A stretch of DNA of 64,000 bases. It comes from Rhodopseudomonas sp. Its GTDB lineage: Bacteria; Pseudomonadota; Alphaproteobacteria; Rhizobiales; Xanthobacteraceae. The notes beneath the pieces are model-generated. The model made no database searches. It was not told the DNA's origin and was given only the letters and a program-made list of their open reading frames with translations. Within the stretch, counting starts at the first letter, position 1. Every line of letters starts with the position of its first letter. The DNA lies in assembly GCA_016124795.1 (NCBI GenBank), contig WGNB01000014.1, positions 1 through 64,000 on the forward strand, read 5' to 3'. The position numbers were made by a program, and so were the translations under genes. This document shows positions 6,068 to 35,418 of this stretch, piece by piece.

Positions 6068-6706
6068 ATGGCAAGTCCGATGACGAGTTTCAAGACCGAA
6101 AAAGACCTGGTGGTCCTCAGCCTGCTGGAGCAGGTCGAGCGGGACGGCGCCAAGTCCCAGCGGCATATGGCCTCGGAACTCGGGATCGCCGTCGGCCTCG
6201 TTAACGCTTACCTGAAACGCTGCGTCAAAAAGGGCCTGGTCAAGGTCAACGAGGCCCCGGCCCGCCGTTACGCCTATTACCTGACGCCGCAGGGTTTTGC
6301 CGAAAAATCCCGCCTGACGCTCGATTACCTGTCCTATTCGTTCTCCTTTTTCCGCGATGCCCGTGCCGATTGCGCCGACGTTTTCGCTGTCGCCACCGCC
6401 CGTGGCTACAAGCGGGTCGCGATCGCCGGCATGTCGGATCTGGCCGAAATCGCCCGTATCTGCGCGCTCGATAGCGGCGTCGATATCGTCGCGGTGGTCG
6501 ACGATAACGCCGGGGCGGCGACATTTGTCGGCGTACCGGTGGTGGCGAGCTTTGCCGCCATTGGCGAACCCTTCGATGCCGTGGTCGTGACGGATTTGCG
6601 GAAAGCCCGCGAGGTCTTCGATGCGGCGGTCGCCCATATCGGCGCCGACCGTGTGCTGGCGCCCAAAATGCTCGGGTTGCGCCCGCGCGTGGAGCTGGCC
6701 GAATGA
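6068..6706 (+). CDS. Winged-helix regulator with a C-terminal Rossmann/PglD_N-like domain
   Basis: Residues about 10-80 form a MarR/winged-helix DNA-binding domain (RHMASELGIAVGLVNAYLKR, then KKGLVKVNEAPARRYAYYLT as wing). Residues about 110-205 look like a small Rossmann domain (KRVAIAGMSDLAEIA, then VDIVAVVDDNAG, then GVPVVAS). This resembles the N-terminal sensor-like part of PglD/NeuD proteins and suggests it may bind a nucleotide-sugar or coenzyme ligand. It overlaps the RfaH-like gene by 4 bases, so the two are co-translated. It probably controls the glycan operon and perhaps itself through the palindrome at 6011-6027. An alternative ATG lies 12 bases downstream. Confidence 0.75.
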   Translation: MASPMTSFKTEKDLVVLSLLEQVERDGAKSQRHMASELGIAVGLVNAYLKRCVKKGLVKVNEAPARRYAYYLTPQGFAEKSRLTLDYLSYSFSFFRDARADCADVFAVATARGYKRVAIAGMSDLAEIARICALDSGVDIVAVVDDNAGAATFVGVPVVASFAAIGEPFDAVVVTDLRKAREVFDAAVAHIGADRVLAPKMLGLRPRVELAE

Positions 6707-7206
6707 CCCAGAGTTGGTACGTCGTGCAGACACAAGTCCATGGCGAGAGCAAAGCCGCGGCGCATCTGTTGCGGCAGGAGTTTTCGGTCTATCTGCCGCG
6801 CTATCAGAAGCGGCGTCGGCATGCCCGCCGTACCGAGCTCGTCGCCGTCCCGTTGTTCTCGCGCTATCTGTTCGTCGGCGTCGATATGGAAGCGCAGCGT
6901 TGGCGATCGATCCAGTCGACCGTGGGCGTGTCACGGATCGTCTGCAATGGCGATCAGCCGACGGCGGTACCGGAAGGCGTCATCGAGGCGCTCAAGCGGC
7001 GCGAGGACGAGAATGGCTTTGTCGCCTTCGACCAACGCCCGCGGTTTTCGGCCGGCGACCGTGTCCGTGTGACCGAAGGCGCATTTGCCGATTGCCTTGG
7101 TCTGATTGAAGGCATACGCGACGACGAGCGTGTGACGCTGCTGCTGGATCTGCTCGGCCGCAAGGTCCGGGTCTTGATCGATGAAATGGCGGTCGCCGCC
7201 GTCTGA
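6703..7206 (+). CDS. rfaH: RfaH/NusG-type transcription antiterminator
   Basis: 167 residues. The NGN domain (SWYVVQTQVHGESKAAAHL, then YLPRYQKRR, then PLFSRYLFVGVD, then VGVSRIVCNGDQPTAVPEG) is followed by a short C-terminal KOW region (FSAGDRVRVTEGAFADCLGLIE). This is a specialised NusG paralogue rather than housekeeping NusG: it lacks the usual length and sits at the head of a polysaccharide locus. Such proteins join RNA polymerase at an ops site and suppress termination and polarity over long operons. An ops-like sequence occurs at 7287-7298, just behind this gene. Start ATG overlaps the regulator's stop codon. Confidence 0.85.
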   Translation: MTQSWYVVQTQVHGESKAAAHLLRQEFSVYLPRYQKRRRHARRTELVAVPLFSRYLFVGVDMEAQRWRSIQSTVGVSRIVCNGDQPTAVPEGVIEALKRREDENGFVAFDQRPRFSAGDRVRVTEGAFADCLGLIEGIRDDERVTLLLDLLGRKVRVLIDEMAVAAV

Positions 7207-7258
7207 GTTCGCTGATGGAAAGTGGCGCGTTGCCGCTTTCGAACCCCGAAATTTTGCG

Positions 7259-7298
7259 CTTCGAGTGAAAACCGTTTCACCCGAAGTGCGGTAGCGTG
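7259..7298 (+). promoter_or_regulatory. Hairpin followed by an ops-like RfaH recruitment element
   Basis: A stem-loop at 7259-7286 pairs CTTCG with CGAAG and GTGAAA with TTTCAC (one mismatch, loop ACCG). It is followed at once by TGCGGTAGCGTG (7287-7298). The enterobacterial ops consensus is GGCGGTAGNNTN, and the commonly cited form GGCGGTAGCGTG differs from this site only at the first base. It lies 16 bases before the neuB start and 80 bases after the RfaH-like gene, the expected place for loading an antiterminator onto a long operon. The match is seen directly; the function is inferred. Confidence 0.6.
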
Positions 7299-7314
7299 GA
7301 AATTCCGCCACCGG

Positions 7315-8403
7315 ATGAACAAGCTTTTGTCCTCGCACGTCACGATTATCGCGGAGGCTGGCGTCAATCATAACGGCCAGCTCGATCTCGCGCTGGCTCT
7401 GGTCGATGCCGCCGCCGCCGCCGGCGCCGACGTGGTGAAGTTTCAGACTTTCTCGGCCGAACGTCTGGCGACCGGTGCGGCCGGAATGGCCGATTATCAG
7501 AAGCGCAACCTGGGGGGTGCCGAACCGCAGATCGAGATGTTGCGTCGGCTGGAATTGACCCCGGCCATGCATGCGCCGGTGATCGAACGCTGCAAAAGCC
7601 GCGGCATCGAATTCATGTCGTCGCCGTTCGACCTCGAAAGCCTGCGGTTTCTGGTCGAGCAATGCGATGTCGCGACGATCAAGATCCCGTCCGGCGAGAT
7701 CACCAACGGGCCCTACCTGCTGGCGATCGGCCGCAGCGGCCGCAAGGCCATCCTGTCGACCGGCATGGCCGAGCTTGCCGAGATTGCCGCGGCGCTCGAC
7801 CTTCTGGCCTGGGGTTATCTCGGCAAAGGCGATCCGGTGACGATCGATGAAGTCGCCGGCACGCGGAATTTGCCGGAAGCGCGGGCGGTGCTGGCCGACA
7901 AGATTGTCATTCTGCAATGCACGACCGAATATCCGGCCGAATTCTCGACCATCAATCTGCGGGCGATGGATACGCTGCGCGAGACGTTCGGTTTGCCGGT
8001 GGGTTTTTCCGACCACAGTGAAGGCATCGCCATTCCGATCGCGGCGGTGGCTTTGGGTGCGGTCATGGTTGAAAAGCATCTGACGCTGGATCGGACGATG
8101 CCCGGCCCCGACCACAAGGCATCGATCGAGCCGCAGGAATTGGCCGCGATGGTGGCTGGGATCAGGGCCGTCGGGCTGGCGCTCGGCGATGGCGGCAAGT
8201 CGGTCTATCCGGTCGAACTGAAAAATCGCGCGATTGCCCGCAAGTCATTGGTGGCCGCGCGTCCGATTGCGTCAGGCGCGGTGATCGCCGCCGACGATAT
8301 CGTCGCCAAGCGTCCGGGCACCGGTCTTTCGCCGATGCGGTTCTGGAGCGTGATCGGCAGCACCGCCGCCCGCGCTTATGCGCCCGGCGATCTGATCGAA
8401 TGA
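7315..8403 (+). CDS. neuB: Nonulosonic acid synthase (NeuB/LegI family)
   Basis: 362 residues. The TIM-barrel starts with TIIAEAGVNHNGQLDLAL and VKFQTFSAERL, continues with PSGEITNGPYL, LSTGMA, GFSDHSEG and EKHLTLDRTMPGPDH, and ends in a C-terminal antifreeze/SAF domain (SLVAARPIASGAVI, KRPGTGLSP). The family condenses phosphoenolpyruvate with a 6-carbon amino sugar to give sialic, legionaminic or related nonulosonic acids. The Met at 7315 is chosen because homology begins there; the open frame upstream spans the hairpin/ops region. The stop overlaps the next start. The specific acid is uncertain; the LegC/LegG-type neighbours favour legionaminate, and the KdnAB pair suggests a variant. Confidence 0.88.
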   Translation: MNKLLSSHVTIIAEAGVNHNGQLDLALALVDAAAAAGADVVKFQTFSAERLATGAAGMADYQKRNLGGAEPQIEMLRRLELTPAMHAPVIERCKSRGIEFMSSPFDLESLRFLVEQCDVATIKIPSGEITNGPYLLAIGRSGRKAILSTGMAELAEIAAALDLLAWGYLGKGDPVTIDEVAGTRNLPEARAVLADKIVILQCTTEYPAEFSTINLRAMDTLRETFGLPVGFSDHSEGIAIPIAAVALGAVMVEKHLTLDRTMPGPDHKASIEPQELAAMVAGIRAVGLALGDGGKSVYPVELKNRAIARKSLVAARPIASGAVIAADDIVAKRPGTGLSPMRFWSVIGSTAARAYAPGDLIE

Positions 8404-9053
8404 TCGAACGGCCGGTAATCGTCATCGGTGCCGGCGGTCATGCCAAAGTGGTGATCGATCTGTTGCTGAAGCTCGGCCGGACGGTGACAGTCGCGCTCGA
8501 CAAGGACGAGCCGACCTCGGCTCGTTCGCTGCTCGGTGTGCCGGTCGCCGGTGAAAGCGCGGCCTTTGGTTACGGCCCCGACGACGTCGATCTGGCGCTC
8601 GGTGTCGGTATGCCGACCGATCGTCCGATTCAGGGGCTGTCGGGGCGGCGGGCGCTGACCGCGAAGTTCGAGGCCGGCGGTTATCGCTTTCCGGCTCTGG
8701 TTCATCCGTCGGCGATCATCGGCGCCGATGTCAGACTCGATCGGGGCGTTCAAATCATGGCTGGCGCCGTCGTTCAGCCGAGCTGCGTTGTCGGAGATTT
8801 TGCCATCGTTAATACCCGCGCCAGCGTCGACCACGATTGCGTCATCGGCGAGGGCTGTCATGTCGGCCCGGGCGCGACGCTCGGCGGTGGCGTTCGCGTC
8901 GGCGCTGACAGCCTGGTCGGCATCGGTGCGACCGTGCGGCAGGGCGTCACCATCGGCGCACGCGCGCTGATCGCCGGCGGCGCGATGGTGATCGGTGACA
9001 TCGCCGACGATAGCCAAGGTTTCGGCGTGCCGGCACGCGGGCGAATGTCGTGA
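8400..9053 (+). CDS. neuD: NeuD/PglD/LegH-type sugar O/N-acyltransferase
   Basis: 217 residues. An N-terminal Rossmann-like PglD_N domain (PVIVIGAGGHAKVVIDLLL) is followed by hexapeptide repeats forming a left-handed beta-helix from about residue 95 (HPSAIIGADVRLDRGVQIM, then NTRASVDHDCVIGEGCHVGP with the catalytic His). Members acetylate 4-amino sugars in the bacillosamine/legionaminate routes or O-acetylate sialic acids, using acetyl-CoA. ATGA overlap with neuB and a tight join to the nucleotidyltransferase place it in this pathway. The role of LegH fits the set LegC-LegG-LegI-LegF, but O-acetylation of the final acid cannot be excluded. Confidence 0.85.
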   Translation: MIERPVIVIGAGGHAKVVIDLLLKLGRTVTVALDKDEPTSARSLLGVPVAGESAAFGYGPDDVDLALGVGMPTDRPIQGLSGRRALTAKFEAGGYRFPALVHPSAIIGADVRLDRGVQIMAGAVVQPSCVVGDFAIVNTRASVDHDCVIGEGCHVGPGATLGGGVRVGADSLVGIGATVRQGVTIGARALIAGGAMVIGDIADDSQGFGVPARGRMS

Positions 9054-10114
9054 AGGACTGGCACAACACCCTGGCCGCGCCGCAGGACACCATCCTGTCG
9101 GCGCTCGCCACGATCGATCGCGGCGCGATGCAGATCGCGCTGGTGGTCGATCAGGATCAGCGCCTTCTCGGGTTGGTGACCGATGGCGATATCCGCAAGC
9201 ATATCCTGAAGGGCGCGGCGCTCGACGGTCCGATCGCGCCCTTGATGAATACCGATCCGGTTGTCGCCAGCCCCGCCGAAGGCCGCACGGAAATGCTGGC
9301 GCGGATGCGGGCCCGTGGCATTCATCAACTGCCGTTGGTCGATGCATCGCGTCGCGTTGCCGGTCTCGTCACGCTCGACGAATTGCTGGAGGCCGAGCGT
9401 CAGCCGAACATGGTGGTGCTGATGGCCGGTGGCATGGGCAGCCGGTTGCGGCCGCTGACCGCCAATACGCCGAAGCCGATGCTGCGGATCGGCGAACGGC
9501 CGATCCTCGAAACCATCCTGATGCAGTTCATGGAATATGGTTTCCATCGCTTTGCCATCACGATGCACTATCTCGGCCACAAGATCGTCGAACATTTCGG
9601 CGACGGCAGCCGCTTCGGAGCCGAGATCACTTATGTGCGCGAAACCGAACCATTGGGTACCGCCGGTGCCTTGTCGCTTTTGCCGGAGCGACCGGAACAT
9701 CCGTTTTTCGTGATGAACGGCGACGTCCTGACCAAGCTCAACTTTGGCAACCTGATGGCGTTTCATCGCGATTGCAGGCCCCCGGTGACGATGTGCGTTC
9801 GCGAGCATTCGGTCACGGTGCCTTATGGCGTCGCCGAGATTGAGGGCGATCATCTCAAGACGCTGATCGAGAAGCCGACCTACCGTCACATGGTCAATGC
9901 CGGCATCTATGTTTGTAATCCGGAAATCGTTGATATCGTTCCGCGTGGCCGGCCGAGCACAATGGTCGATCTCGTTCACATGCTGATGAAGCGTCAGCAG
10001 CGGCCGGCGGTATTTCCGGTTCAGGAATATTGGGTCGATATCGGACAGCATAGCGATCTGGCGCGCGCCGATGCCGAATTCGATGAAGTTTTCGCGGAAG
10101 TTCCGCAACCGTAA
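9050..10114 (+). CDS. ptmE: CBS-domain nucleotidyltransferase (PtmE-like sugar-1-phosphate guanylyltransferase)
   Basis: 354 residues. Two CBS repeats occupy about residues 1-120 (VVDQDQRLLGLVTDGDIRKH, then MRARGIHQLPLVDA). The nucleotidyltransferase domain starts at residue 122: VVLMAGGMGSRLRPLT, then PKPMLRIGERPILE and FVMNGDVLT. This is the layout of Campylobacter PtmE, which makes GDP-glucosamine from GlcN-1-phosphate in the legionaminate pathway. The start is GTG in a stop/start overlap. The CBS pair may sense adenine nucleotides. Another hexose-1-phosphate is possible as substrate. Confidence 0.75.
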   Translation: MKDWHNTLAAPQDTILSALATIDRGAMQIALVVDQDQRLLGLVTDGDIRKHILKGAALDGPIAPLMNTDPVVASPAEGRTEMLARMRARGIHQLPLVDASRRVAGLVTLDELLEAERQPNMVVLMAGGMGSRLRPLTANTPKPMLRIGERPILETILMQFMEYGFHRFAITMHYLGHKIVEHFGDGSRFGAEITYVRETEPLGTAGALSLLPERPEHPFFVMNGDVLTKLNFGNLMAFHRDCRPPVTMCVREHSVTVPYGVAEIEGDHLKTLIEKPTYRHMVNAGIYVCNPEIVDIVPRGRPSTMVDLVHMLMKRQQRPAVFPVQEYWVDIGQHSDLARADAEFDEVFAEVPQP

Positions 10115-10135
10115 CGCTCCAACACTGGGTACGAC

Positions 10136-11305
10136 ATGCGCGATACGTTCTTCTTTCAACTCGACAACAGACTGCACTACGGGATCGGCTGGTCGCGCGG
10201 GCTGGGCGACTTCGTCAAGGCGCAAGGCTGGCATCATGTCGCCATTCTGGTCGACGAGGGCGTGGCGGCGCACAGCCCTTATTACGCCGAGATCAAGCCT
10301 CTGCTCGCAGCAGCGGTCGATAGTTTGACCGAAATCAAGATGCGCGGCAGCGAAGAGCCGTCGTACGATTATCTCGATCAGGTCGCCGATCAGTTGCGGC
10401 GCCTGCCCGCGCTTGACGGCATCGTCGCCATTGGCGGCGGCAGCGCGCTCGATAGCGCCAAGGCGCTTGCCTGCCTGCGCACCAATCCCGGTCCGGCGCT
10501 TGATTATCGCGGCTTCGACAAGGTGACGGTGCCGCCGGTGCCGACGATCTGCATTCCGAGCACGGCTGGTACCGGCAGTGAAGTGACGATCAACGCGGTG
10601 TTCACTGACAAGTCGGAGCAGCGCAAGCTGGGCATCAACGGCCGCTATCTCAATGCGACCTATGCCGTTCTCGACGCCGAATGGACCATGAGCGCGCCGG
10701 CTTCGGTGGCGATCTCGTCGGGCATGGATGCGTTGGTCCACACGCTGGAAAGCTTCATGACCGGCAATGCCAACCCGCTGACCCGGGCGCTCAATCGTGA
10801 GGCGTTCCGGTTGCTTTACACCAATCTGCCGAGCCTGATCGATGCGCCCGGCGACAAGGTCAAGCGCCAGGCCCTGCTGCTCGGCAGCTATCTGGCAGCG
10901 GCCGGTTTGTTCAACTCGGGATCCGGCATTGCCGGCGCCCTGTCTTATCCGATCGGCGTTCACTTCAAGGTTCCGCACGGCATTGCCGGCGGCATCTTCA
11001 TTGCGTCGGTCGTCGACTTCAACGTGGCGCACGGTTGGTACGACTACGCCGAGCTGCTCGATGTGGTCGAGCCGCATCCGGACTGGACGGCCGAGCAGAA
11101 GTCGAAGCGCTTCGCCGAGGCAATGCATGCGCTGGCCGATCACCTTGGCGTGCCGAAGACGCTCGGCCAATGGGGCATTACCCGCGCCAACCTCGATCAC
11201 GTCGTGAGCCTGGTGACGCCGCTACAGGCCGCTTTCAACCAGAATCCCATCCCGTTTACGGGTGAGACCGATGCCCGCGCCATGTTGGCGCTGCATACGG
11301 CTTAA
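10136..11305 (+). CDS. kdnB: KdnB-like iron-containing alcohol dehydrogenase
   Basis: 389 residues of the Fe-ADH fold: VAIGGGSALDSAKA (97-110) for NAD binding, PSTAGTGSEV (141-150), then GMDALVH with metal ligands Asp198 and His202, and the last ligand His281 in VPHG. The next gene is KdnA-like. In Shewanella the KdnB/KdnA pair oxidises C8 of Kdo and aminates it to Kdo8N. Oddity: the position that normally holds the third metal-ligand His appears to be Gly267 (GIAGALSYP), with His276 nearby as a possible substitute. The substrate may be Kdo or the nonulosonate made by the surrounding genes. Confidence 0.7.
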   Translation: MRDTFFFQLDNRLHYGIGWSRGLGDFVKAQGWHHVAILVDEGVAAHSPYYAEIKPLLAAAVDSLTEIKMRGSEEPSYDYLDQVADQLRRLPALDGIVAIGGGSALDSAKALACLRTNPGPALDYRGFDKVTVPPVPTICIPSTAGTGSEVTINAVFTDKSEQRKLGINGRYLNATYAVLDAEWTMSAPASVAISSGMDALVHTLESFMTGNANPLTRALNREAFRLLYTNLPSLIDAPGDKVKRQALLLGSYLAAAGLFNSGSGIAGALSYPIGVHFKVPHGIAGGIFIASVVDFNVAHGWYDYAELLDVVEPHPDWTAEQKSKRFAEAMHALADHLGVPKTLGQWGITRANLDHVVSLVTPLQAAFNQNPIPFTGETDARAMLALHTA

Positions 11306-11333
11306 TTTCAGCGTTCCACACAGGACAGCAGAC

Positions 11334-12503
11334 ATGCCCGGTTTTGAACTTTTTGGCGAAGAAGAACGTCAGGCGATCAACGAGATTTTCGATCACGGCG
11401 GCGGCGTCGTTTTCGCTCATGGCTTCGACGCCATGCGCAACGGCAGCTACAAGGTCCGTGAGTTCGAGCGTGAATTCGCCGCTCGTCTCGGTGCGAAATA
11501 TGCGCAGGCGGTGTCGTCCGGCACGGCGGCGCTTAAAGTCGGCCTGCTTAGCCTTGGCGTAGGTCCTGGCGATGAGGTCATTACCCAGGCTTTTACTTTC
11601 GTCGCCACCGTCGAGGCGATCCGCGAAACCGGCGCGGTGCCGGTCATCGTCGACGTTAACGATACACTGAATATGGATCCGGCGGCTTTTCGCGCCGCGA
11701 TCACGCCGCGCACCAAGGTCGTTCTGCCGGTGCACATGATGGGCGAATGCGCCGAGATGGACGAGATCATGGCCATCGCCAAGGAGCACAATATTCTGGT
11801 GATGGAAGACGCCGCGCAGGCGCTGGGTGCGAGCTATTTCGGCCGCAATGCCGGCACGATGGCGGCGGTCGGCGCTTATTCGACCGATGCCGGCAAGTCG
11901 CTCAACACCGGCGAAGGCGGCCTGGTCGTGACGAACGACGAGCAGCGCTACGTGCTGGCGCGCGGCCTGCACGATCACGGCCATGAATACAGCAAGACCA
12001 AGGGCCGCGGCGAAGAAGGCGCGATCTGCTTCGGCTTCAATTACCGGATGACCGAAATGCAGGGCGCGGTCGGTGTCGCGCAGCTCAAGAAGCTCGACAC
12101 CATTGTCGCCCGTCAGCGCGAGAACAAGGCCAAGCTGATGAAGCGTTTGCAGGCGCTGCCGGTCAAGTTCCGTCGCAGCGCCGATCCGAACGGCGATCTC
12201 GGCGATACCATCGTGTTTTTCCTGCCGGACCGCGCCAAGACCGACAAGTTCGTCGCCGCCATGCGCGCCAAGGGACTCGGCACCAAGAACCTGCCGGATG
12301 CGATCGGCTGGCATTTTGCCAAGCACTGGAAGCACGTCATGCAAGGCAATCCGCGTTACGAGGGCAAATGCGACACGGCCTGGGAAAAGACCGCGGACCT
12401 GCTGGAGTGTTCGGTGGCGATCCCGGTGATGGTCAAGATGGATGACGCGCGTATCGAGCACGTCGCCGAAACCTTGCTACAGGTCGGTCGCGAGGTTCTG
12501 TGA
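11334..12503 (+). CDS. kdnA: KdnA-like PLP aminotransferase (DegT/DnrJ/EryC1/StrS)
   Basis: 389 residues, fold type I. The N-terminus (MPGFELFGEEERQAINEI, then FDAMRNGSYKVREFE) closely recalls KdnA, the 8-amino-3,8-dideoxy-manno-octulosonate transaminase. The substrate and cofactor sites are SSGTAALK, MEDAAQALGA (Asp159) and the Schiff-base lysine Lys188 in STDAGKSLNTGEGG. Glutamate is the likely amino donor. The start at 11334 has an AGGA site 8 bases upstream. It would aminate the aldehyde made by the preceding dehydrogenase. A generic sugar aminotransferase is the alternative. Confidence 0.75.
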   Translation: MPGFELFGEEERQAINEIFDHGGGVVFAHGFDAMRNGSYKVREFEREFAARLGAKYAQAVSSGTAALKVGLLSLGVGPGDEVITQAFTFVATVEAIRETGAVPVIVDVNDTLNMDPAAFRAAITPRTKVVLPVHMMGECAEMDEIMAIAKEHNILVMEDAAQALGASYFGRNAGTMAAVGAYSTDAGKSLNTGEGGLVVTNDEQRYVLARGLHDHGHEYSKTKGRGEEGAICFGFNYRMTEMQGAVGVAQLKKLDTIVARQRENKAKLMKRLQALPVKFRRSADPNGDLGDTIVFFLPDRAKTDKFVAAMRAKGLGTKNLPDAIGWHFAKHWKHVMQGNPRYEGKCDTAWEKTADLLECSVAIPVMVKMDDARIEHVAETLLQVGREVL

Positions 12504-13225
12504 GGGTCCTGGCGGTCATACCGGCGCGCGGCGGTTCCAAGGGCATCCCCCGCAAGAACATCGTTCCGCTCGCCGGCCGTCCTTTGATCGCCTACACGCT
12601 TGATGCTGCCCGGCAATCGACGGCGGTCAGCGATATTCTGGTCACGACCGATGACGACGAGATCGCGGCCCTGTGCGAGAGCCTTGGGGTCGCGGTGCCG
12701 TATCGCCGGCCGGACAAACTGGGCGGTGACGCCGTCGGCATGGTCGATACGGTGATTCACGCGCTCGATTGGTGGGCCGCGCTGAACGGTGGCGATCCTG
12801 ACCTGGTCGTGCTGCTGCAACCGACCTCGCCGTTGCGGGTGGCGGCCGATATCGACGGCGCGGTGCGGGCCCTGTCCGACAGTGGCAAGGCCAGTGCGAT
12901 CAGCGTTCACCGGCTGCGAGAGCATCCGATGGAAAGCGTGCGGGTGACCGGCGATTCCTGGGCCATGCTGGAAAGACCGCCGGCCGGGGCCAACCGCCGG
13001 CAGGATTACAATGCCGAATTCCAGTTCATCAACGGCGCGATTTATGCCGTGACGCCGCGGTTCCTGCGCGAGCGCCGGGCGTTCATGACCGAGGGTCATG
13101 AAACCGCGCTCTACACGATGCCCGCTCTGCGCGGCCTCGATATCGACTACCCCGAAGATCTTGATCTGGCCGAAGCTATTCTCGGACACGCCAGACTCAG
13201 CGCCAACATCCAACAGCAGAATTGA
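12500..13225 (+). CDS. neuA: CMP-nonulosonate cytidylyltransferase (NeuA/LegF family)
   Basis: 241 residues with the CTP-binding start VIPARGGSKGIPRKNI, then LAGRPLIAYTL, LLQPTSPLR, and the acidic end LDIDYPEDLDLAEAI. It activates a nonulosonic acid (Leg, Neu or a variant) with CTP for glycosyl transfer. The GTG start overlaps the stop of the KdnA-like gene. This position directly behind neuB-neuD-ptmE-kdnB-kdnA suggests it activates the product of that module. It is clearly different from the KdsB-like enzyme at 36921 and the SpsF-like one at 28696. Confidence 0.85.
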   Translation: MRVLAVIPARGGSKGIPRKNIVPLAGRPLIAYTLDAARQSTAVSDILVTTDDDEIAALCESLGVAVPYRRPDKLGGDAVGMVDTVIHALDWWAALNGGDPDLVVLLQPTSPLRVAADIDGAVRALSDSGKASAISVHRLREHPMESVRVTGDSWAMLERPPAGANRRQDYNAEFQFINGAIYAVTPRFLRERRAFMTEGHETALYTMPALRGLDIDYPEDLDLAEAILGHARLSANIQQQN

Positions 13226-13230
13226 ATCGA

Positions 13231-14367
13231 ATGACCATTTCGCTTTCTCGCGCTCAATCGATCGCTTACATAGCCAATGCGGACTTGCCTGAACCGGTCC
13301 GTGACGAGATCTTTGCGGAAGAGACGCGCGTTACAAACGAAGTCTTGAATCCTCGCGGTATGTCCCGTCGCCGTGTCTTGCTTGTCGGTGGCGCGGGTTA
13401 TATCGGCTCGCCGTTGACGCAGTTCCTTCTGGCGCGCGGATATGATGTCCGATGCCTCGATTTGCTCCTGTACCGTAATCGCGATTGCGTCACGCCATTT
13501 CTGGGGCATCCGAACTATCAGTTCGTCGAGGCCGATGTTGGCGATGCGCGCGCGACGGACGCCGCTTTGGCCGATGTGACAGATGTTATCATTCTGGCGG
13601 GGCTGGTCGGCGACCCGATCACCAAGAAATATCCTGTTGAGCATCAAGCAATCAATGAAGACGGTCTGGCTCGCTTTATCGACAGTCTCGATGGCCGCGG
13701 TTTGAATAAGGTCGTTATGGTTTCGACCTGTTCGAACTATGGTGAAATTCCGCCCGACGCGCTTGCCGACGAGAACTATGCCCTAAAGCCGATGTCGCTT
13801 TACGCTACCGCCAAAGTGGCGCGCGAAACCCAAATTCTTGGCGGGGCGAATAAGGTCGATTATTGCGGCACCGTACTGCGCTTTGCCACCGCTTTCGGGC
13901 TATCGAGCCGGATGCGTTTCGATCTGACGGTTTCCGAATTCACGCGTGATTTGTTCAGCGGCACCGTTCTCCAGGTCTATGACGCAGATACGTGGCGGCC
14001 TTATTGCCACGTTCGCGATTTCGCCCGGGCCTTGTCGCGCGTCTTGGAGATGCCTTCGAACGCGGTTCGCTTCGAAGTCTTCAATGCTGGCGGCGACGCG
14101 AATAATTATACCAAGAAAATGATCGTCGATGCCGTGCAGCGGCATTTTCCGCAATCGCGCTATGAGTTCGTCGCCGGTGGGTTTGATCGCCGCAACTACA
14201 AGGTCGACTTTCGAAAGATAAAGGAACGGCTGTATTTCGAGCCGGAATTCAGCGTTGAGCAAGGAATCGTTGAATTAATCGGTGCGCTACGGCAGGGGTT
14301 CTTCGCCGATTACGCGGAGCGGCTGCTATTCTATCGAAACGAAGAGCTGAGCTATAAGCCGGTATGA
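13231..14367 (+). CDS. NAD-dependent sugar epimerase/dehydratase (extended SDR)
   Basis: About 378 residues. An N-terminal extension of about 45 residues precedes the nucleotide site LLVGGAGYIGSPLTQFLL. The active site contains VSTCSNYG and the catalytic Tyr-x3-Lys in LYATAK; then FNAGGDANNYTKK and the C-terminal substrate region follow. It is not a classic LegB/PseB 4,6-dehydratase (no TDK/TDE-type motif). It precedes LegC and NeuC-type genes, so it may supply or epimerise their substrate. Third-position A/T looks more frequent from here to about 34 kb than in 7.3-13.2 kb. A TTG at 13222 is an alternative start. Confidence 0.65.
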   Translation: MTISLSRAQSIAYIANADLPEPVRDEIFAEETRVTNEVLNPRGMSRRRVLLVGGAGYIGSPLTQFLLARGYDVRCLDLLLYRNRDCVTPFLGHPNYQFVEADVGDARATDAALADVTDVIILAGLVGDPITKKYPVEHQAINEDGLARFIDSLDGRGLNKVVMVSTCSNYGEIPPDALADENYALKPMSLYATAKVARETQILGGANKVDYCGTVLRFATAFGLSSRMRFDLTVSEFTRDLFSGTVLQVYDADTWRPYCHVRDFARALSRVLEMPSNAVRFEVFNAGGDANNYTKKMIVDAVQRHFPQSRYEFVAGGFDRRNYKVDFRKIKERLYFEPEFSVEQGIVELIGALRQGFFADYAERLLFYRNEELSYKPV

Positions 14368-15584
14368 CGACGATGGCTTTACAGTCTGAAGCCTTCAATC
14401 GCTCCGCGGTGGCGGATGCCCTGGTCGCGGCTGTCAGGTCGGTGCTTGGTCCTGGCGAGAAATTTATCGCCTTGCATGAGCCCGAATTTGCCGGTCGCGA
14501 ATGGGAATATGTCAAGGATTGTATCGATACTGGATGGGTGTCGTCCGCCGGGGCCTATGTCGATCGCTTCGAGCGCGATCTAGCGGCCTATACCGGCGCC
14601 AAACATGCTGTCGCTGTGGTTAATGGAACGGCGGCGCTTCATCTGGCATTGGTGCTGGCCGGGGTGAAACCGGGGAATGAGGTCATCGTTCCGACGCTCA
14701 CGTTTGTCGCCACTGCGAATGCTGTGTCGCAGGCCGGCGCCGTTCCTCATTTCGTCGACATCAGTATGCCGGCGCTTGGTCTGGATGCAGAAAAGCTTGA
14801 CCAGTACTTGGCTGACATCCTCATCGATAAAGACGGACAGAGAATCAATCGCTTGACCGGCCGACGCATGTCCGCCGTTGTTGTCATGCATACTTTTGGC
14901 CACCCGGCGGAAATCGAAAAACTCGCGGCCGTTTGCGAGCGCCATGGCCTGTTGCTCGTCGAGGATGCCGCCGAGTCTCTTGGATCAACATGGCATGGCA
15001 AGCACTGCGGCACATTCGGCGTAGTCGCCGCCTTGTCTTTTAACGGGAACAAAGTCGTTACGACCGGCGGTGGCGGCGCTGTATTGACCTCGGACGAAAC
15101 GCTCGCGCGCCGGGCCAAACATTTGTCGACGACTGCGAAGTTGCCGCATCCCTGGCTTTATAGCCATGATGAGGTCGGTTTCAATTACCGCATGCCGAAC
15201 CTCAACGCGGCGCTTGGTTGTGCGCAGCTTGAGCGGCTGGACGGGTTCGTCGAAGAAAAGCGTCGATTGGCCGCCGCCTATGAAGCGGCTTTTGCCAAGG
15301 TCGGTCATGTGCAGTTCTTGCGTGAACCCGAGGGCAGTCGAAGTAACTATTGGCTGACAGCCATTCGTCTCGATGATGCGCTGGCCGATACAAGCCTGCG
15401 GGATGATGTTCTGACCTTGTTGAACAAGGCGAATTATATGGCGCGTCCAGCCTGGACGTTGATGCATCGTCTGGCGCCTTATGCGACGGCGCCGCGAATG
15501 GCCGACCTCTCGGTCGCGGAAGTGGTTGAGCGGACCCTTGTCAATTTGCCGAGCTCGCCGCGGCTGGGTCGTGGAATCGACTGA
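14364..15584 (+). CDS. legC: LegC-family PLP aminotransferase
   Basis: 406 residues. The opening FIALHEPEFAGREWEYVKDC followed by IDTGWVSSAGAYVDRFE is characteristic of LegC-type enzymes. VVNGTAALHLAL, VEDAAESLGST and the Schiff-base lysine Lys220 in SFNGNKVVTTGGGG complete the DegT/DnrJ active site. LegC aminates the 4-keto group of a 6-deoxy-4-keto-GlcNAc nucleotide on the way to legionaminic acid. It overlaps the SDR gene (ATGA) and is followed 1 base after its stop by the NeuC-like gene. The donor nucleotide (UDP or GDP) is not decidable here. Confidence 0.8.
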   Translation: MTTMALQSEAFNRSAVADALVAAVRSVLGPGEKFIALHEPEFAGREWEYVKDCIDTGWVSSAGAYVDRFERDLAAYTGAKHAVAVVNGTAALHLALVLAGVKPGNEVIVPTLTFVATANAVSQAGAVPHFVDISMPALGLDAEKLDQYLADILIDKDGQRINRLTGRRMSAVVVMHTFGHPAEIEKLAAVCERHGLLLVEDAAESLGSTWHGKHCGTFGVVAALSFNGNKVVTTGGGGAVLTSDETLARRAKHLSTTAKLPHPWLYSHDEVGFNYRMPNLNAALGCAQLERLDGFVEEKRRLAAAYEAAFAKVGHVQFLREPEGSRSNYWLTAIRLDDALADTSLRDDVLTLLNKANYMARPAWTLMHRLAPYATAPRMADLSVAEVVERTLVNLPSSPRLGRGID

Positions 15585-15585
15585 G

Positions 15586-16746
15586 ATGACGCGCTCGATT
15601 TGCGTCTTTACCGGTTCACGTGCCGAATATGGCTTGCTCGCGCCGTTGATGGCGGAAATTAAGGCTGATCCTCGCCTTGAACTCAGACTCATCGTTAGCG
15701 GAAGCCATCTCAGCGGTGAGTTTGGAGAAACCTGGCGCAATATTGAGGCTGATGGTTTCAAGATCGACAGCATGGTCGACATGCAACTCGATAGCGATTC
15801 GTCAGTCGCGATTGCCCGATCGATGGCCCAATGCCTGTCCGGCTGCGCCGAGGCGCTTGCGCAATTGTCTCCCGATTTGTTCGTTGTCCTCGGTGATCGC
15901 TACGAAGTCCTTGCTGCCGCCGAAGCGGCCATGGTGTTGAAAATTCCGATTGCCCATATTCATGGCGGCGAAGCGACCGAAGGCGCGATGGACGATGCCA
16001 TTCGTCATGCCGTCACCAAGCTCGCAAGCCTTCACTTCCCGGCGACCGAAGCCTATCGGCAGCGGATTATTCAGCTCGGTGAGCAGCCTGAGCGGGTATT
16101 CGCGACCGGCGCGCCCGGGCTGGACGTCATCGACACGATCAAGCTCCTGACACGCGAAGAGCTCGAAGCGGATCTCGGCTTCAAGTTCAGGCCGAAGAAT
16201 TTGTTGGTGACCTATCATCCGGTCACTCTCGATGCCGCCGATCCGGCGGATTCCATCACTCAATTGTTCGCGGCTTTGGACTCCTTTCCGGACATGGGCG
16301 TGGTTATCACAAAGTCCAATGCCGATTCCGGAGGCCGTACGATCAATCGGATGGTTGACGATTTTGCGGCGCGGAATTTGGGTCGTGTTCATGCCGCGGC
16401 ATCGCTGGGCCAGTTGCGCTATCTGTCGGTCATGGCTCACGTCGACGCGGTGGTGGGCAACTCCTCAAGCGGTATCATCGAGACGCCGGCGATGGGCAAG
16501 CCGACAGTCAATATCGGGAACAGACAGCGCGGCCGGTCGCGAGCGCCATCGGTGATCGATTGTGCCGGCGACACCCAATCGATTGTAACGGCGATCTCTA
16601 CCGCCCTGGGTTCCGAGATGCAGGGGGTCGCCGGTCGCCGAGTTTCACCCTACGGCCGTGGCGGCGCGTCCGCTCGAATCAAGCAAAAACTGGCGACGGT
16701 CGAGCTTGCCGGTATTTTGCGTAAGCCCTTCTATACCGCCGCATAA
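15586..16746 (+). CDS. neuC: Hydrolysing NDP-sugar 2-epimerase (NeuC/LegG)
   Basis: 386 residues, GT-B-like fold: ICVFTGSRAEYGLLAPLM at the start, VVLGDRYEVLAAA, HIHGGEATEGAMDDAIRH, FATGAPGLDVI, LVTYHPVT and VGNSSSGIIETPAMGKPTVN. These match hydrolysing UDP/GDP-GlcNAc 2-epimerases that release ManNAc or 2,4-diacetamido-trideoxymannose for the NeuB step. With LegC just upstream, the LegG role is favoured. It ends the first nonulosonate block; about 190 noncoding bases follow. Confidence 0.88.
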   Translation: MTRSICVFTGSRAEYGLLAPLMAEIKADPRLELRLIVSGSHLSGEFGETWRNIEADGFKIDSMVDMQLDSDSSVAIARSMAQCLSGCAEALAQLSPDLFVVLGDRYEVLAAAEAAMVLKIPIAHIHGGEATEGAMDDAIRHAVTKLASLHFPATEAYRQRIIQLGEQPERVFATGAPGLDVIDTIKLLTREELEADLGFKFRPKNLLVTYHPVTLDAADPADSITQLFAALDSFPDMGVVITKSNADSGGRTINRMVDDFAARNLGRVHAAASLGQLRYLSVMAHVDAVVGNSSSGIIETPAMGKPTVNIGNRQRGRSRAPSVIDCAGDTQSIVTAISTALGSEMQGVAGRRVSPYGRGGASARIKQKLATVELAGILRKPFYTAA

Positions 16747-16939
16747 ATGATGTTTTCGCACTGCGACGTCGCTGATCTTGTCGCGGCTCCGTGTCGGTCG
16801 GGGCGGGTCGAATATTTGCGAAGCGGTCGCGGGCATAGTTGGATAAGATGCGGCCGTGGCGCCTGGCGCGCTGTAAATGTCCGGGCGTCGGATGGCCTTG
16901 GCTCCAAAGCTTCTGTTGGTTTTTCCATAGGAGGTTGAG

Positions 16940-17989
16940 ATGTTGGGTGCTCTTCGGGATGCAGTCAAAGTTCCGATTGTGAACGGTCTGCATAAGAACA
17001 AGGACATCTACTACGGGCGCTATAAGGGCACCTCGGATACTTTCCCGCTTCTGGTGAAGAATCTGATGGACCCGTTCCGGTTCCTTCGGAAAGTCCGTTA
17101 CGGTCAGGTGCCGTTGCTGCCGCAATTCATGCAGGCTGGAAGGCCTTATCCAAAGGCTTTCGATAAATACATCGAAGATGCCAACCTGATGGGGCATTTT
17201 GAAACCTTCCGTGACACCGGCCTGACGGTGATTCCGGAATACTTCCCGGCGGCGAAGTGCGATGCCTTGATCGAGGCGTTGGATATTGCCGACGCCTTCA
17301 CAGGCGAAGCAGACGCTTACAAGGCCGCCGATTTGATCCTGCAGTTGAACGAGCTGACCTTGTCGTTCTGGCTCGACATGCCCCTGGTCGCGATTTTGGG
17401 AAAATATCTTCAGCGCTTTCCGTATGCTCGCAATTATCCAAACGTTTCCGTCGCTAACCCCAATTTCGACAGTTTGCCGACCCGCAAGGTCAATACGCCG
17501 CATGATATCAGCCTCAATGTCGGCTGGCATTTCGACACCGTTAACCTGGTTCAGTTTGCGGTTCTGTTGAACGATGTCGACGATACCGGCTCCTGTATGC
17601 AGGTCATCGCTGGCACACATCGCAAGCATCACCTGAAATTGACCCGCGACGATTACTGGTTGTCCGATGAATATGTTGAAAGCCGCGATTGGCCGGTCGT
17701 TAATTGCGTTGGCAAAAAGGGCACCGTCTACATATTTGATTCCAATGCCTATCACCGTCTGCGCGCCGTTAAGGGAAAGCCGCGGTCGATGTTGAAATGC
17801 GAATTCACCCCTGGGAATAATACGTTGATGAATTGCAGCGCGGTGGCCGAGTCGTTGAAAGACGACGCCAATGCCTTGAAGAAGCTGACGCCGTTGCAGC
17901 GCGAGCTCATTTCAGCAATCTATCCGATGCCCGGAAATGGCGGATATCGTTACGAAGCCGGCGTATTTCGCGGAGACAAGATCCGCTAG
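16940..17989 (+). CDS. Second PhyH-like Fe(II)/2-oxoglutarate dioxygenase
   Basis: 349 residues with a helical N-terminal part and a beta-helix core. The iron site is His197-x-Asp199 (VGWHFDTVN) and a distal His272 (SNAYHRLR). CMQVIAGTHRKHH is the usual PhyH loop between them. A strong ribosome site (AGGAGG, 6 bases upstream) marks the start. About 190 noncoding bases separate it from neuC, so it may have its own promoter. It is unlike the PhyH protein at 5082 in length and sequence. The target may be a sugar, acyl group or carrier lipid; nothing in the sequence decides this. Confidence 0.75.
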   Translation: MLGALRDAVKVPIVNGLHKNKDIYYGRYKGTSDTFPLLVKNLMDPFRFLRKVRYGQVPLLPQFMQAGRPYPKAFDKYIEDANLMGHFETFRDTGLTVIPEYFPAAKCDALIEALDIADAFTGEADAYKAADLILQLNELTLSFWLDMPLVAILGKYLQRFPYARNYPNVSVANPNFDSLPTRKVNTPHDISLNVGWHFDTVNLVQFAVLLNDVDDTGSCMQVIAGTHRKHHLKLTRDDYWLSDEYVESRDWPVVNCVGKKGTVYIFDSNAYHRLRAVKGKPRSMLKCEFTPGNNTLMNCSAVAESLKDDANALKKLTPLQRELISAIYPMPGNGGYRYEAGVFRGDKIR

Positions 17990-18173
17990 CGATATCCGAA
18001 TTGAAAATGTGGCGGCGTGCTTGCTGTCCGGGAAGGCGAAATAGGCCCCACGCCTGCATAAAGGGCGAATAAGCCAATTCAGTTTTCGTCTGGAAACTTC
18101 AAACTTGCTTGCTCCGGCGGCCAAGCCACGGCCGAGGCCGGTCTCGCGACGCAACTCAAAAAAGTCAGGTTTT

Positions 18174-19157
18174 ATGGCATCTCTCAGCGATAGCTCAATT
18201 CTCGTGACCGGCGGTACAGGCTCTTTTGGACGACGGTTCATTCGTCATCTGTTGGAAAAGCACAATCCGAAACGGATCGTCGTTTATTCGCGCGATGAGC
18301 TTAAGCAATATGAAATGGCGCAAGAGATCAGCGCGCCACAGCTTCGCTATTTCATCGGCGACGTGCGTGACCGCGAGCGGTTTGAGCGCGCTCTTAATGG
18401 CATTGACACCATCGTTCATGCGGCGGCGATGAAGCAGGTGGTGGCTGCAGAATACAATCCCATAGAATGTATCAAGACCAACGTCATCGGCGCCGAGAAC
18501 GTCATCAACGCCGCGATTAATTGCGGCGTGAAAAAAGTGATCGCGTTGTCGACCGACAAGGCTGTTAATCCGATCAATCTGTATGGCGCCACCAAACTGT
18601 GCTCGGACAAGATATTTACTGCGGCCAGCCACCTTGCGGGGATTAACGGGCCGCGTTTTGCTATCGTTCGTTACGGCAACGTCGTGGGATCGCGCGGCAG
18701 CGTCGTTCCGCTGTTCAAGAAGCAGCGTCCGAGCGGCAAGCTGACCATTACCGATGACCGGATGACGCGGTTCTGGATCACGCTTGAGGAGGGTGTGAAT
18801 TTCGTAGACCGTTGTCTTGGTTTGATGCGCGGTGGCGAAGTCTTTATTCCGAAGATTCCTTCAATGCGTATCACGGACCTGGCTCGATCGATGGCGCCAG
18901 AGTGCGAACAGGAAATTGTCGGCATTCGTCCGGGCGAAAAGCTTCACGAGTGCATGATCCCCCAGGATGAAGCTCGCTTGACGCGCGAATTTGAGGATTT
19001 CTATGTCATTCTGCCCGCCATGCCGACCGGGGCGGCGATAGGCGAGCCCATCTATGATGGCAAGCTGGGAAAGCCGGTTGCCGAGAATTTCGCCTATAAT
19101 AGCGATACCAATGATCGTTGGGCGACCGGCGAGCAGTTTCTGGCTATGGTGCAATGA
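18174..19157 (+). CDS. pseB: UDP-GlcNAc 4,6-dehydratase (inverting), PseB
   Basis: 327 residues, near the usual PseB size (about 330). SSILVTGGTGSFGRRFIRHLL binds NADP. VYSRDELKQYEMAQE, HAAAMKQVVAAEYNP, ALSTDKAVNPINLYGATK (Thr-Asp-Lys and Tyr-x3-Lys) and VRYGNVVGSRGSVVP are hallmark PseB/FlaA1 motifs. It converts UDP-GlcNAc to UDP-4-keto-6-deoxy-L-AltNAc, the first step to pseudaminic acid. The Met at 18174 is chosen from homology; the open frame extends further upstream. The stop overlaps the pseC start. Confidence 0.93.
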   Translation: MASLSDSSILVTGGTGSFGRRFIRHLLEKHNPKRIVVYSRDELKQYEMAQEISAPQLRYFIGDVRDRERFERALNGIDTIVHAAAMKQVVAAEYNPIECIKTNVIGAENVINAAINCGVKKVIALSTDKAVNPINLYGATKLCSDKIFTAASHLAGINGPRFAIVRYGNVVGSRGSVVPLFKKQRPSGKLTITDDRMTRFWITLEEGVNFVDRCLGLMRGGEVFIPKIPSMRITDLARSMAPECEQEIVGIRPGEKLHECMIPQDEARLTREFEDFYVILPAMPTGAAIGEPIYDGKLGKPVAENFAYNSDTNDRWATGEQFLAMVQ

Positions 19158-20338
19158 CATCTCCCTTTCTGGGCTACGGACGCCAGACCGTAGCGCAAGA
19201 CGACATCGACGCGGTCGTCGCTGTTCTGCGCGGCGATTACCTGACGCAAGGTCCGCTGGTTGATCGTTTCGAGCAGGCGTTGGCCGAACGGGTCGGTGCG
19301 GCATATGCCGTCGCAGTTTCCAACGGCACAGCGGGATTGCATTTGGCCTGCCTTGCCGCTGATTTTGGCCCGGGCCAGCGTGGGTTGACGTCCGCCTTGA
19401 CCTTTGTCGCGTCGGCGAATTGTTTTTACTACTGCGGCGGTGAAGCCGGCGTTGTCGACGTCGATGCGGAAACCTTGTGTCTTTCTCCTGCCGCGCTAGC
19501 CCAGTCTTTGGCGGACGGCGATAACGTAACCGCCATTGTACCGGTCGACTTTGGCGGTCTGGCGGCGGGAAATGCCGAGCTTCGCACTGCGGCTGGTAAG
19601 CGGGTTATCATCGAAGATGCGTGCCATGCCTTCGGTGGCGATTATGCCGACGGCGCGCCGGTCGGCTCAGGCAAGCATGCCGACATGACGGTGTTTTCCT
19701 TTCATCCGGTCAAGCCGATCACGACCGGAGAAGGCGGCGCAATTACCACAAACGATCCGGAATTTGCCCGCCGGTTACGGCTCTTGCGCAGTCATGGCAT
19801 CGAGCGGGAGCCGACACGTCTTCAAGACAAGGGGCCGGCCTCGGGAGAGCCCCGGCCCTGGCATTATGAGCAGCAGTCCCTGGGCTATAATTATCGGCTT
19901 ACGGATATGCAGGCAGCGCTTGGCTTGACGCAGTTGTCGAAGCTTGATGGGTTTTTGGCTCGTCGCCGCGAAATCGCTGCTTATTACGATGCACAGTTGA
20001 CGAAGTTGCCGGGCTTACAGGTTCCGCAGTCGGCCCCGGATATGCGTCGTCGCTCGGGCATGCATTTGTACCTCATTCAAGTCGATTGGCCGCGTTTCGG
20101 AACGACACGCGGTCGCGTCATGGAAGCTTTGCGGGGACGGGGTATCGGCACTCAAGTTCATTATATTCCGGTCTATCGGCAGCCTTATCATGCCCACCGC
20201 ATGGCGGTGAGGCCCGCTTTGTTTCCGAATGCCGAACGCTACTTTGACGAATGCCTGTCGATACCGTTGTTCCCGTCGATGACGGATACGGACGCCGAGC
20301 GTGTTGTTGCCGTGTTGCGCGAGGTCCTTGGTGCCTGA
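19154..20338 (+). CDS. pseC: PseC aminotransferase
   Basis: 394 residues. LGYGRQTVAQDDIDAVVAVL is the typical PseC opening. VSNGTAGLHLA, IIEDACHAFGGDY and FSFHPVKPITTGEGG with Lys187 as PLP lysine complete the active site. It aminates UDP-4-keto-6-deoxy-L-AltNAc with glutamate. It directly follows pseB with an ATGA overlap, as in pseudaminate clusters. Confidence is high because gene pair order and motifs agree. Confidence 0.93.
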   Translation: MTSPFLGYGRQTVAQDDIDAVVAVLRGDYLTQGPLVDRFEQALAERVGAAYAVAVSNGTAGLHLACLAADFGPGQRGLTSALTFVASANCFYYCGGEAGVVDVDAETLCLSPAALAQSLADGDNVTAIVPVDFGGLAAGNAELRTAAGKRVIIEDACHAFGGDYADGAPVGSGKHADMTVFSFHPVKPITTGEGGAITTNDPEFARRLRLLRSHGIEREPTRLQDKGPASGEPRPWHYEQQSLGYNYRLTDMQAALGLTQLSKLDGFLARRREIAAYYDAQLTKLPGLQVPQSAPDMRRRSGMHLYLIQVDWPRFGTTRGRVMEALRGRGIGTQVHYIPVYRQPYHAHRMAVRPALFPNAERYFDECLSIPLFPSMTDTDAERVVAVLREVLGA

Positions 20339-22244: not shown

Positions 22245-23248
22245 GTGCCGCGCCGCACGTGCTGTTCAGGACCGACGCGACGGCGGAAATTGGCGCCGGC
22301 CATTTGATGCGGTGCCTTGGGCTGGCGCAGTACCTGCGGGACAACGGCGTCGAGGTGAGTTTGGCGACTGTCGCGCCGGGACATCGATTCGTCGACCTTT
22401 GGCGCGACGAGGGCGCGATTGTTCACGATTTGACCGGCGTTGCACGTGGCAGTGAAGCGGATGCGAATTTAACGCTTGGCTTGTCCGAAAAAGGTCTGGT
22501 CGTCGTTGACGGCTATGATTTCGGCGCTCGCTTTGTCGAAGCGCTTCGTCGCGTTGTAAGTGCTGTCGCGGTGTTCGACGATTTGAACGATAGGCCGGTG
22601 GATGCCGACGTCGTGATTAATCAGAATGCCGGCGCCGAGACCAATTTCAAATATGACCTGACGAACGGCGTCGCTCTGCTCGGCTGTCAATATGTCATAT
22701 TGCGCCGCACGATACGAACGGCTCAGCACCGAGGTCAGGGCGGCATTCTCGTGACGCTGGGCGGCGCCGACCGTGATAATCTTGGACTTGGCGTGTTGGA
22801 GCGTCTTGCGATCGCAAAGATCGATACGCCTGTCCACTTGATCTGCACTGCCGGCGACGAGGGATTGCGAAAGGCTCAGGAGTTTTGCGCCGCCAATCGG
22901 CGATTTTCGGTGTCCGGACCTGGTGAGATACTCGATTTCCTATGTCGGGCCGACGTTGCGCTTTGCGCGGGCGGAACGACTTCGCTCGAACTCGCTTTTC
23001 TTGGCGTTCCCGCGAGCATCGTCGTCCTTGCCGAGAACCAGCGGCCGGGGGCCATCGCTGTTGCAAGGGCAGGCGCCGCAATGATCGCCGATACAATAGA
23101 AGCTGCGGTCGCCAATATATCGATTCTCGCCGAGACTGCGGTCCACCGTCGGATGAGTGCTGCCGGTCGCTCGCTGGTTGATGGCAAAGGCGTCGAGCGC
23201 GTCGCTGCGGCGCTGCTGCCCGCTCACTTCTCCGAAACCGTCCATTGA
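22238..23248 (+). CDS. pseG: PseG: UDP-6-deoxy-AltdiNAc hydrolase
   Basis: 336 residues with the GT-B fold of PseG. VLFRTDATAEIGAGHLMRCL holds the signature (GxGHxxR with catalytic His), followed by VVVDGYDFG, VFDDLNDRPVDADVVINQN, LVTLGGADRDN and CAGGTTSLELAFLGVP. It removes UDP to give free 2,4-diacetamido-2,4,6-trideoxy-L-altrose, the sugar condensed with PEP in pseudaminate synthesis. No PseH acetyltransferase domain is fused to it. The start codon overlaps the preceding gene's stop. Confidence 0.9.
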   Translation: MLSAAPHVLFRTDATAEIGAGHLMRCLGLAQYLRDNGVEVSLATVAPGHRFVDLWRDEGAIVHDLTGVARGSEADANLTLGLSEKGLVVVDGYDFGARFVEALRRVVSAVAVFDDLNDRPVDADVVINQNAGAETNFKYDLTNGVALLGCQYVILRRTIRTAQHRGQGGILVTLGGADRDNLGLGVLERLAIAKIDTPVHLICTAGDEGLRKAQEFCAANRRFSVSGPGEILDFLCRADVALCAGGTTSLELAFLGVPASIVVLAENQRPGAIAVARAGAAMIADTIEAAVANISILAETAVHRRMSAAGRSLVDGKGVERVAAALLPAHFSETVH

Positions 23249-23257
23249 GCCCATTCT

Positions 23258-25778: not shown

Positions 25779-26227
25779 CACCCGACGAATTCCGCGCGCA
25801 GTTCCTTCAGATGATGCACAACAAGGAGAATCGCTTTCACCCGTTGGTCTGGATCAACGGAGAACCCGAGGTCGGCGAAAGAACTTATATCGGCGGGTTG
25901 AGCGAGCTGAATGCCAAGGGCGCTCGTGTGACAATCGGTGCTGACTGCGACATTGCTTCTTTCGTTGCGATTAATGTTGCTGATTCACATTTGCGTTGTA
26001 TCGGTCTTGCTGAACAGAACGTCTGTCGCGATATCGTTATTGGCGACAATGTGTTCATCGGGTCGCATTCAGGCATCTTCGGCGGTAGTGAAGTCGGCCA
26101 CCATTCCGTGATTGCTGCCGGAACAATGGTTCGCGGCGAAAAAATCCCACCTTATTCGCTGGTGATCGGAAATCCGGCGGTGGTGAAGCCGGGCTATTAC
26201 AAGCCGACTGATAACAAGGCCAGTTGA
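25775..26227 (+). CDS. Hexapeptide-repeat acyltransferase
   Basis: 150 residues, with a left-handed beta-helix made of hexapeptide turns from about residue 30 (GERTYIGGLSELNAKG, RVTIGADCDIASFVAIN, DIVIGDNVFIGSHSGI, SVIAAGTMVRGEKIPP, LVIGNPAVVKPG). The start is GTG with a GGAG site 6 bases upstream, overlapping the methyltransferase. With no PseH (GNAT) gene in sight, this protein is a candidate for acylating an amino sugar in the second nonulosonate or DegT branch. O-acetylation is the alternative. Confidence 0.75.
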   Translation: MTPDEFRAQFLQMMHNKENRFHPLVWINGEPEVGERTYIGGLSELNAKGARVTIGADCDIASFVAINVADSHLRCIGLAEQNVCRDIVIGDNVFIGSHSGIFGGSEVGHHSVIAAGTMVRGEKIPPYSLVIGNPAVVKPGYYKPTDNKAS

Positions 26228-28674: not shown

Positions 28675-28695
28675 CCGCCCGGCCGGGACGCTCTC

Positions 28696-29511: not shown

Positions 29512-29512
29512 A

Positions 29513-32058: not shown

Positions 32059-32074
32059 TCCTGGTTGATTTATT

Positions 32075-33347: not shown

Positions 33348-33348
33348 C

Positions 33349-35413: not shown

Positions 35414-35418
35414 CGGCG

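Follow-up and report, generated by a model that had tools for sequence, protein, structure and literature searches.

Details of recruitment have been described as known only for RfaH of E. coli, a specialised NusG paralogue (PMC7593976), and the recruitment of other NusG paralogues has been called unclear (PMC12691694). Base 6 of ops, a T, is bound by RfaH, residues K10, H20, R23 and R73 making the contacts with ops (PMC5995543), and the RNA 3' end of the complex paused there lies at U11 (PMC11001881). JUMPstart has been listed for the Gammaproteobacteria, with a conserved stem-loop, by Weinberg and others (PMC2864571). In the available text of Wang and others, 18% of RfaH genes are placed in the Alphaproteobacteria and one cluster is associated with an HTH regulator, with no ops site described for the alphaproteobacterial RfaH (PMC7593976); among open-licence papers, no description of ops or JUMPstart in Alphaproteobacteria, rhizobia or Bradyrhizobium was found.

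Two other kinds of NusG paralogue are also comparable. LoaP of Bacillus (dfn leader) resembles the present case in lying near a biosynthetic cluster and in having a small, essential hairpin in the leader RNA, but differs in that its hairpin produces no discernible pause and that no ops is mentioned in the available text of PMC12691694. Paralogues of the UpxY and TaA types are likewise encoded in cis with their target operon; their mode of recruitment is described as unknown in the text available (PMC7593976), and the locus reported here has a candidate site.

The window, that is, the whole stretch of 64,000 nucleotides from Rhodopseudomonas sp. that was analysed, contains the following features:

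6068..6706, + strand: marR-like gene for a winged-helix protein whose N-terminus resembles MarR_EPS regulators (TIGR04176)
6703..7206, + strand: RfaH-like NusG paralogue of 167 aa, stop TGA at 7204-7206 (TIGR01955, PF02357)
7259..7286, + strand: RNA stem-loop of 28 bases, arms 7259-7270 and 7275-7286, loop 7271-7274
7287..7298, + strand: ops-like element TGCGGTAGCGTG, read in the non-template strand, directly after the stem-loop
7315..8403, + strand: NeuB-type nonulosonate synthase, first downstream gene (TIGR03569, 445 bits, passes the cut-off)
8400..40588, + strand: run of surface-sugar genes, all on the same strand, the presumed target
8400-9053, + strand: NeuD-type gene, above the cut-off
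15550-16746, + strand: NeuC-type gene, above the cut-off
18174-19157, + strand: PseB-type gene, above the cut-off

The leader between the RfaH-like gene and the sugar genes is probably the alphaproteobacterial counterpart of JUMPstart/ops, in which hairpin and ops would form a composite pause that loads the RfaH-like protein. What has been observed is its anatomy, its conservation, the covariation of the hairpin, the fixed spacing, the co-occurrence with rfaH and the position before sugar genes. The element TGCGGTAGCGTG begins 80 bases past the RfaH-like stop, ends 16 bases ahead of the ATG at 7315 and is identical in 11 of 12 bases to GGCGGTAGCGTG, the ops of the E. coli K-12 rfb leader; its position and match had been reported in an earlier note on this DNA and are confirmed. 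The stem-loop named there also proved real: it consists of 5 + 6 pairs with an A7264.C7281 mismatch between them and a 4-base loop, folding of the RNA from 7250 to 7310 gives z = -4.3, a stability that none of 200 shuffles equalled, and the stem covaries in relatives.

The likeness to the E. coli system extends to a hairpin directly before GCGGTAGCGTG, long surface-sugar clusters downstream, a specialised NusG paralogue and more than one target per genome. The geometry is also akin, the E. coli rfb leader having a 5-pair stem, one G and then ops, with a stem-ops gap of 1 nt. In contrast to the E. coli JUMPstart, the alphaproteobacterial stem is longer and of different sequence, base 1 of ops is mostly T (46 of 53 elements) and the window's rfaH sits just upstream of its target cluster. 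The JUMPstart model RF01707 gives 16.0 bits at the window site against 60 bits at the E. coli rfb leader, and its gathering score of 35 was passed in none of 20 loci and none of 385 genomes of the class; conversely, the E. coli JUMPstart scores 11.4 bits with a new model of hairpin plus ops. What appears to be new is the sequence variant, its range in the class, its placement relative to rfaH and the covariation of the hairpin; the kind of element itself is known.

TIGR01955 (RfaH) is the top NCBIfam match of the window protein, with 124.7 bits (E 3.3e-36) against 48.7 bits for the LoaP model; its cut-off of 144.5 lies above this score and is reached in none of the 385 class genomes. The NusG N-terminal domain PF02357 is passed with 76.6 bits (cut-off 22.2), and the closest solved structures of relatives are those of E. 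coli RfaH. The earlier note had proposed comparing the DNA-contact residues with RfaH, and the outcome is divided: at K10, H20, R23 and R73 the window protein has Q, H, R and V, so that H20 and R23, as well as Q24, are kept and K10 and R73 are not. E48 and R138 are in contact in the autoinhibited E. coli protein. E48, which is required for this autoinhibition (PMC7593976), is a further difference, the positions E48, F130 and R138 being V, I and R in the window protein, where the E48-R138 pair is thus absent. The Rho-contact loop of NusG, I-F-G, is lost in RfaH (PMC7593976) and also in the window protein, with L-L-G at L145-I146-N147, where G alone matches NusG. Two AlphaFold2 models, with mean pLDDT of 33.6 and 40.4, were too poor to show how the C-terminal domain folds. 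Another contig of the same genome (C57; L113:5988-6665, minus strand) encodes a second NusG-like protein (225 aa, PF02357, 49.6 bits with the RfaH model). Its gene is next to an ORF that, judged by eye, looks like a phage DNA primase/helicase, and it may be a prophage-borne NusG paralogue.

The ops motif alone proves nothing, since five exact copies of the 11-mer occur in the 5.14 Mb genome and near matches in the window are unremarkable in number (GCGGTAGCGTG with at most one mismatch: 5 matches against 2.05 expected, a number reached in 4 of 100 shuffles). By itself the 11-mer is not significant; conservation is decisive, and it is conservation, not motif frequency, that rules out a chance match as the explanation of the site. 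The genome-wide comparison with chance suggested in the earlier note is accordingly unremarkable for the bare motif, and gains content from the context of the copies: two of the five (in the window and at C49:58068) have a hairpin ending 0-3 nt ahead of ops and sugar genes downstream, two lie inside same-strand ORFs of 701 and 330 aa, and the fifth lacks such a hairpin. A covariance model of hairpin plus ops gives 53 bits at the window site, from which it was partly built, and at most 12 bits elsewhere in the window. The statement that there is no second copy holds within the window but not for the genome, since a second site lies on a different contig (C49:58068-58107; 26.8 bits, E 7e-5). There, GGCGGTAGCGTG, with 12 of 12 ops bases, follows the hairpin and heads gmd, fcl, a WcaI-family glycosyltransferase gene, more glycosyltransferase genes, a methyltransferase and a flippase gene. 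A third candidate, at C18:28445-28488, is weak (16.6 bits, E 0.12); the ORF after it resembles by eye an O-antigen polymerase or ligase. C18:146526 (21.1 bits) was rejected as an element, as it lies inside a 409-aa ORF.

Of 100 related genomes, 89 gave relatives of the RfaH-like protein; ordinary NusG accounts for many of the weak matches. Four further named or MAG contigs also carry relatives. Comparison of the 5' regions at 34 loci, the window's own among them, showed the hairpin and GCGGTAGC in 25, always 3' of rfaH, at 47-271 nt and on the same strand, also in the seven of these loci with rfaH on the minus strand. The near-relative elements read [T/G]GCGGTAGC, each preceded by a hairpin. 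The alignment of homologous 5' regions that had been proposed for the site thus speaks for it, the stem-ops spacing being fixed. Two Bradyrhizobium contigs carry the element and a Ferrovibrio MAG does not; nine of the 34 loci are without it beside rfaH, one of them at a contig end. Among near-relative genomes the element is present in 25 of 38 with an RfaH-like gene and in none of 61 without, a comparison with some circularity, as those same relatives had served to build the model. Two leaders have variant ops: in one genome (G005, L082:1501-1562) two ops copies stand in tandem after the hairpin, an 18-base unit with GGCGGTAGCGTTTCGCAA twice, and in another (G217, L204) the hairpin precedes TGCGTGAGCATG, which is ops-like and altered at both bases that RfaH reads in E. 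coli.

A first model made from six elements retrieved 24 elements at E<=0.008, with a 25th (L025) at E 0.79. In the 24 elements, 87.9% of the cells are paired, and in 24 cells both partners have changed without loss of pairing; the elements have a covariation score of 0.298, compared with 0.120 for shuffled alignments and at most 0.084 with the partners slid. As this alignment was fitted to the structure, an independent set matters: 29 elements from other families, found by a second model and left out of its building, score 0.265 against at most 0.060 when slid, with 22 double-change cells. The inner five positions, CACCC/GGGTG, show little variation and most of the covariation falls in the outer four pairs. 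Stems of about 7-11 pairs are found in most folds of the near relatives and end 0-2 nt from ops in 24 of 25 folds (4 nt in L024).

An inverted repeat beside a regulator gene could also be a DNA operator of the MarR-like protein, only the ops part serving RfaH, and this has some footing: MarR-like relatives occur in 42 of 62 loci tested, and the inner arms often read GGTGA..TCACC. The window's marR-like gene overlaps the RfaH-like gene by 4 bases, its product scoring 61.1 bits with TIGR04176 (below the cut-off of 88) and passing that of HTH_24. We nevertheless consider an operator improbable. In the outer pairs both partners change and pairing is retained, the spacing of the would-be half-sites varies as the loop does (2-13 nt) while the stem abuts ops at a constant distance, and the stretch fetched around several unlinked elements contains no MarR-like gene. 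Moreover, the stems of E. coli, of a family outside the class (f219, below) and of locus L196, where a stem of wholly different sequence abuts ops, differ from it. A variable loop next to a fixed stem-ops junction fits an RNA hairpin better than a DNA operator with two half-sites. The MarR-like protein of the window has a C-terminal extension of about 120 residues past its winged-helix match.

Across the class, RfaH-like genes were taken as those with at least 86 bits for TIGR01955, a threshold chosen by us at a gap in the scores, and searches of more than 40 genomes at once ran with stricter filters. The element (E<=1e-6) is present in 35 of 384 other alphaproteobacterial genomes, 34 of which belong to the 86 genomes that have an RfaH-like gene (Fisher 5.5e-24, a statistic that ignores kinship); the remaining one is a 74% complete genome in which no RfaH-like gene was detected, and 52 of the 86 lack the element at this threshold. 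Seventeen of the 35 elements are found no more than 230 nt 3' of the RfaH-like gene, three about 0.9 kb from a divergent one, six farther along the same contig and eight on another contig. This distribution bears on the idea that the hairpin serves the marR-rfaH mRNA as an intrinsic terminator, an attenuator or a protector of the 3' end, the likeness to ops being incidental, as the hairpin's place after the rfaH stop in the window and in 25 of the 34 near loci might imply. That is very improbable: the same hairpin and ops head unlinked clusters and stand apart from the divergent genes, GCGGTAGC follows the hairpin at a fixed distance, no T run comes after it and a terminator scan found none.

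In a model-free test around the 60 best-scoring of the 89 RfaH-like genes, GCGGTAGC was found at most 400 nt 3' of 18, against a mean of 0.48 and a largest count of 5 for 200 permuted 8-mers; with 1200 nt of the divergent side added, it was found at 24 of the 60, against a permuted mean of 2.1 and a largest count of 12. At 17 of the 18 sites, a stem of at least 5 pairs ends at most 3 nt from ops (shuffles give 7.9). Among the same 60 genes, the same hairpin is followed by GCGGCAGC in three more and by GCGTGAGC in one. The RfaH-ops circuit proposed in the earlier note is therefore supported by a site conserved with its hairpin beside homologous genes and co-occurring with RfaH-like genes. In a phylum sample of 299 genomes, which contains the window's genome and other class members, matches at E<=1e-6 outside the class were confined to seven genomes of family f219, suspected to be Zetaproteobacteria; an RfaH-like gene is present in five of nine f219 loci fetched, and the stem differs in sequence from the alphaproteobacterial one.

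Base 6 of ops is T at position 7292 of the window, and C after the same hairpin at three loci of the class (L124, L164 and L166; genomes G429, G334 and G278), where the RfaH-like protein has E, A or D in place of R at residue 23. Residues other than R at this position accompany base-6 C in 3 of 3 cases and T in 4 of 21 (p 0.017, kinship ignored), so that a shift in specificity in this one small group is possible.

As for the mechanism, we infer the polymerase pause, the recruitment of the RfaH-like protein and the role of the hairpin as follows. RNA polymerase leaving the marR-rfaH genes would pause on ops, at a predicted position of base 11 (7297), by analogy with U11 of E. coli. Pause hairpins act at about 11 nt from the RNA 3' end. 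The stem ends 11 nt upstream of the predicted paused 3' end, which would place the hairpin at the RNA exit, where it could hold the complex. The RfaH-like protein would then read the exposed non-template strand (the GCGGTAGC loop), bind polymerase, relieve the pause and ride through the sugar cluster, excluding NusG and Rho; the hairpin would thus keep polymerase waiting until RfaH loads, and RfaH would free it. Since copies of the element exist elsewhere in the genome, the protein may also act in trans. RfaH has been reported to suppress pause-hairpin effects (PMC6391919), and the E. coli ops-paused complex has been described as distinct from hairpin-stabilised pauses (PMC11001881); the alphaproteobacterial leaders look like both kinds of pause at once.

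For the hairpin itself, a role as pause hairpin or against backtracking has roughly an even chance. It is rather unlikely that it is instead an RNA bound by the RfaH-like protein, with recruitment through RNA and non-template DNA, in part as in LoaP and in part as in RfaH. LoaP does bind a small RNA hairpin (PMC12691694), the 3' arm (CACC) and, in many elements, the loop edge (CG..TCACC) are conserved beyond what pairing requires, and the proteins of the Alphaproteobacteria have a basic stretch in common (R38, H40, A41 and R42, each in at least 90%) in which E. coli RfaH differs; yet stems of unrelated sequence stand at the same place in L196, E. coli and f219. More broadly, we put forward as tentative, and on balance doubtful, a class-wide bipartite signal in which an exit-channel RNA hairpin and the non-template ops would jointly recruit RfaH-family proteins in Alphaproteobacteria and f219. 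If true, it would combine the RNA-hairpin mode of LoaP with the DNA mode of RfaH, and the hairpin, rather than just ops, would be an ancestral part of the system. With the composite pause as the preferred reading, the leader offers a candidate signal by which dozens of RfaH-like proteins encoded in cis may be recruited, whose regulons become predictable with a searchable model, and a covarying hairpin at constant distance from ops makes the role of the JUMPstart RNA hairpin testable.

With regard to the putative targets, 77 element loci were considered, of which five had no GCGGTAGC at the centre and two yielded no ORF; of the 70 ORFs left, 66 were classified. Among the top 25 families of these first downstream genes there are 15 sugar epimerases/dehydratases and 13 Polysacc_synt_2 members (overlapping sets), 8 GFO/IDH/MocA oxidoreductases, 5 DegT aminotransferases, 5 UDP-sugar dehydrogenases and 2 UDP-GlcNAc 2-epimerases, so that, by family assignment, the genes behind the elements appear to be largely sugar-nucleotide or polysaccharide genes. 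For 40 of the 70 ORFs the starts were examined for Shine-Dalgarno-like 4-mers; the starts are no poorer in them (9 of 40) than controls (58 of 206) and thus give no sign of SD-less targets of the E. coli type; SD-less translation was dropped as support for an RfaH circuit. In the window, the cluster is a predicted nonulosonate (sialic-acid-like) pathway, judging from its genes of the NeuB, NeuD, NeuC and PseB types. A second NeuB/PseI-type synthase is encoded in it at 23258-24325, with scores under the cut-offs of the NeuB and PseI models alike; the presence of two such synthases (7315-8403 and 23258-24325, the latter sub-cut-off) suggests that the cluster may make two different nonulosonic acids.
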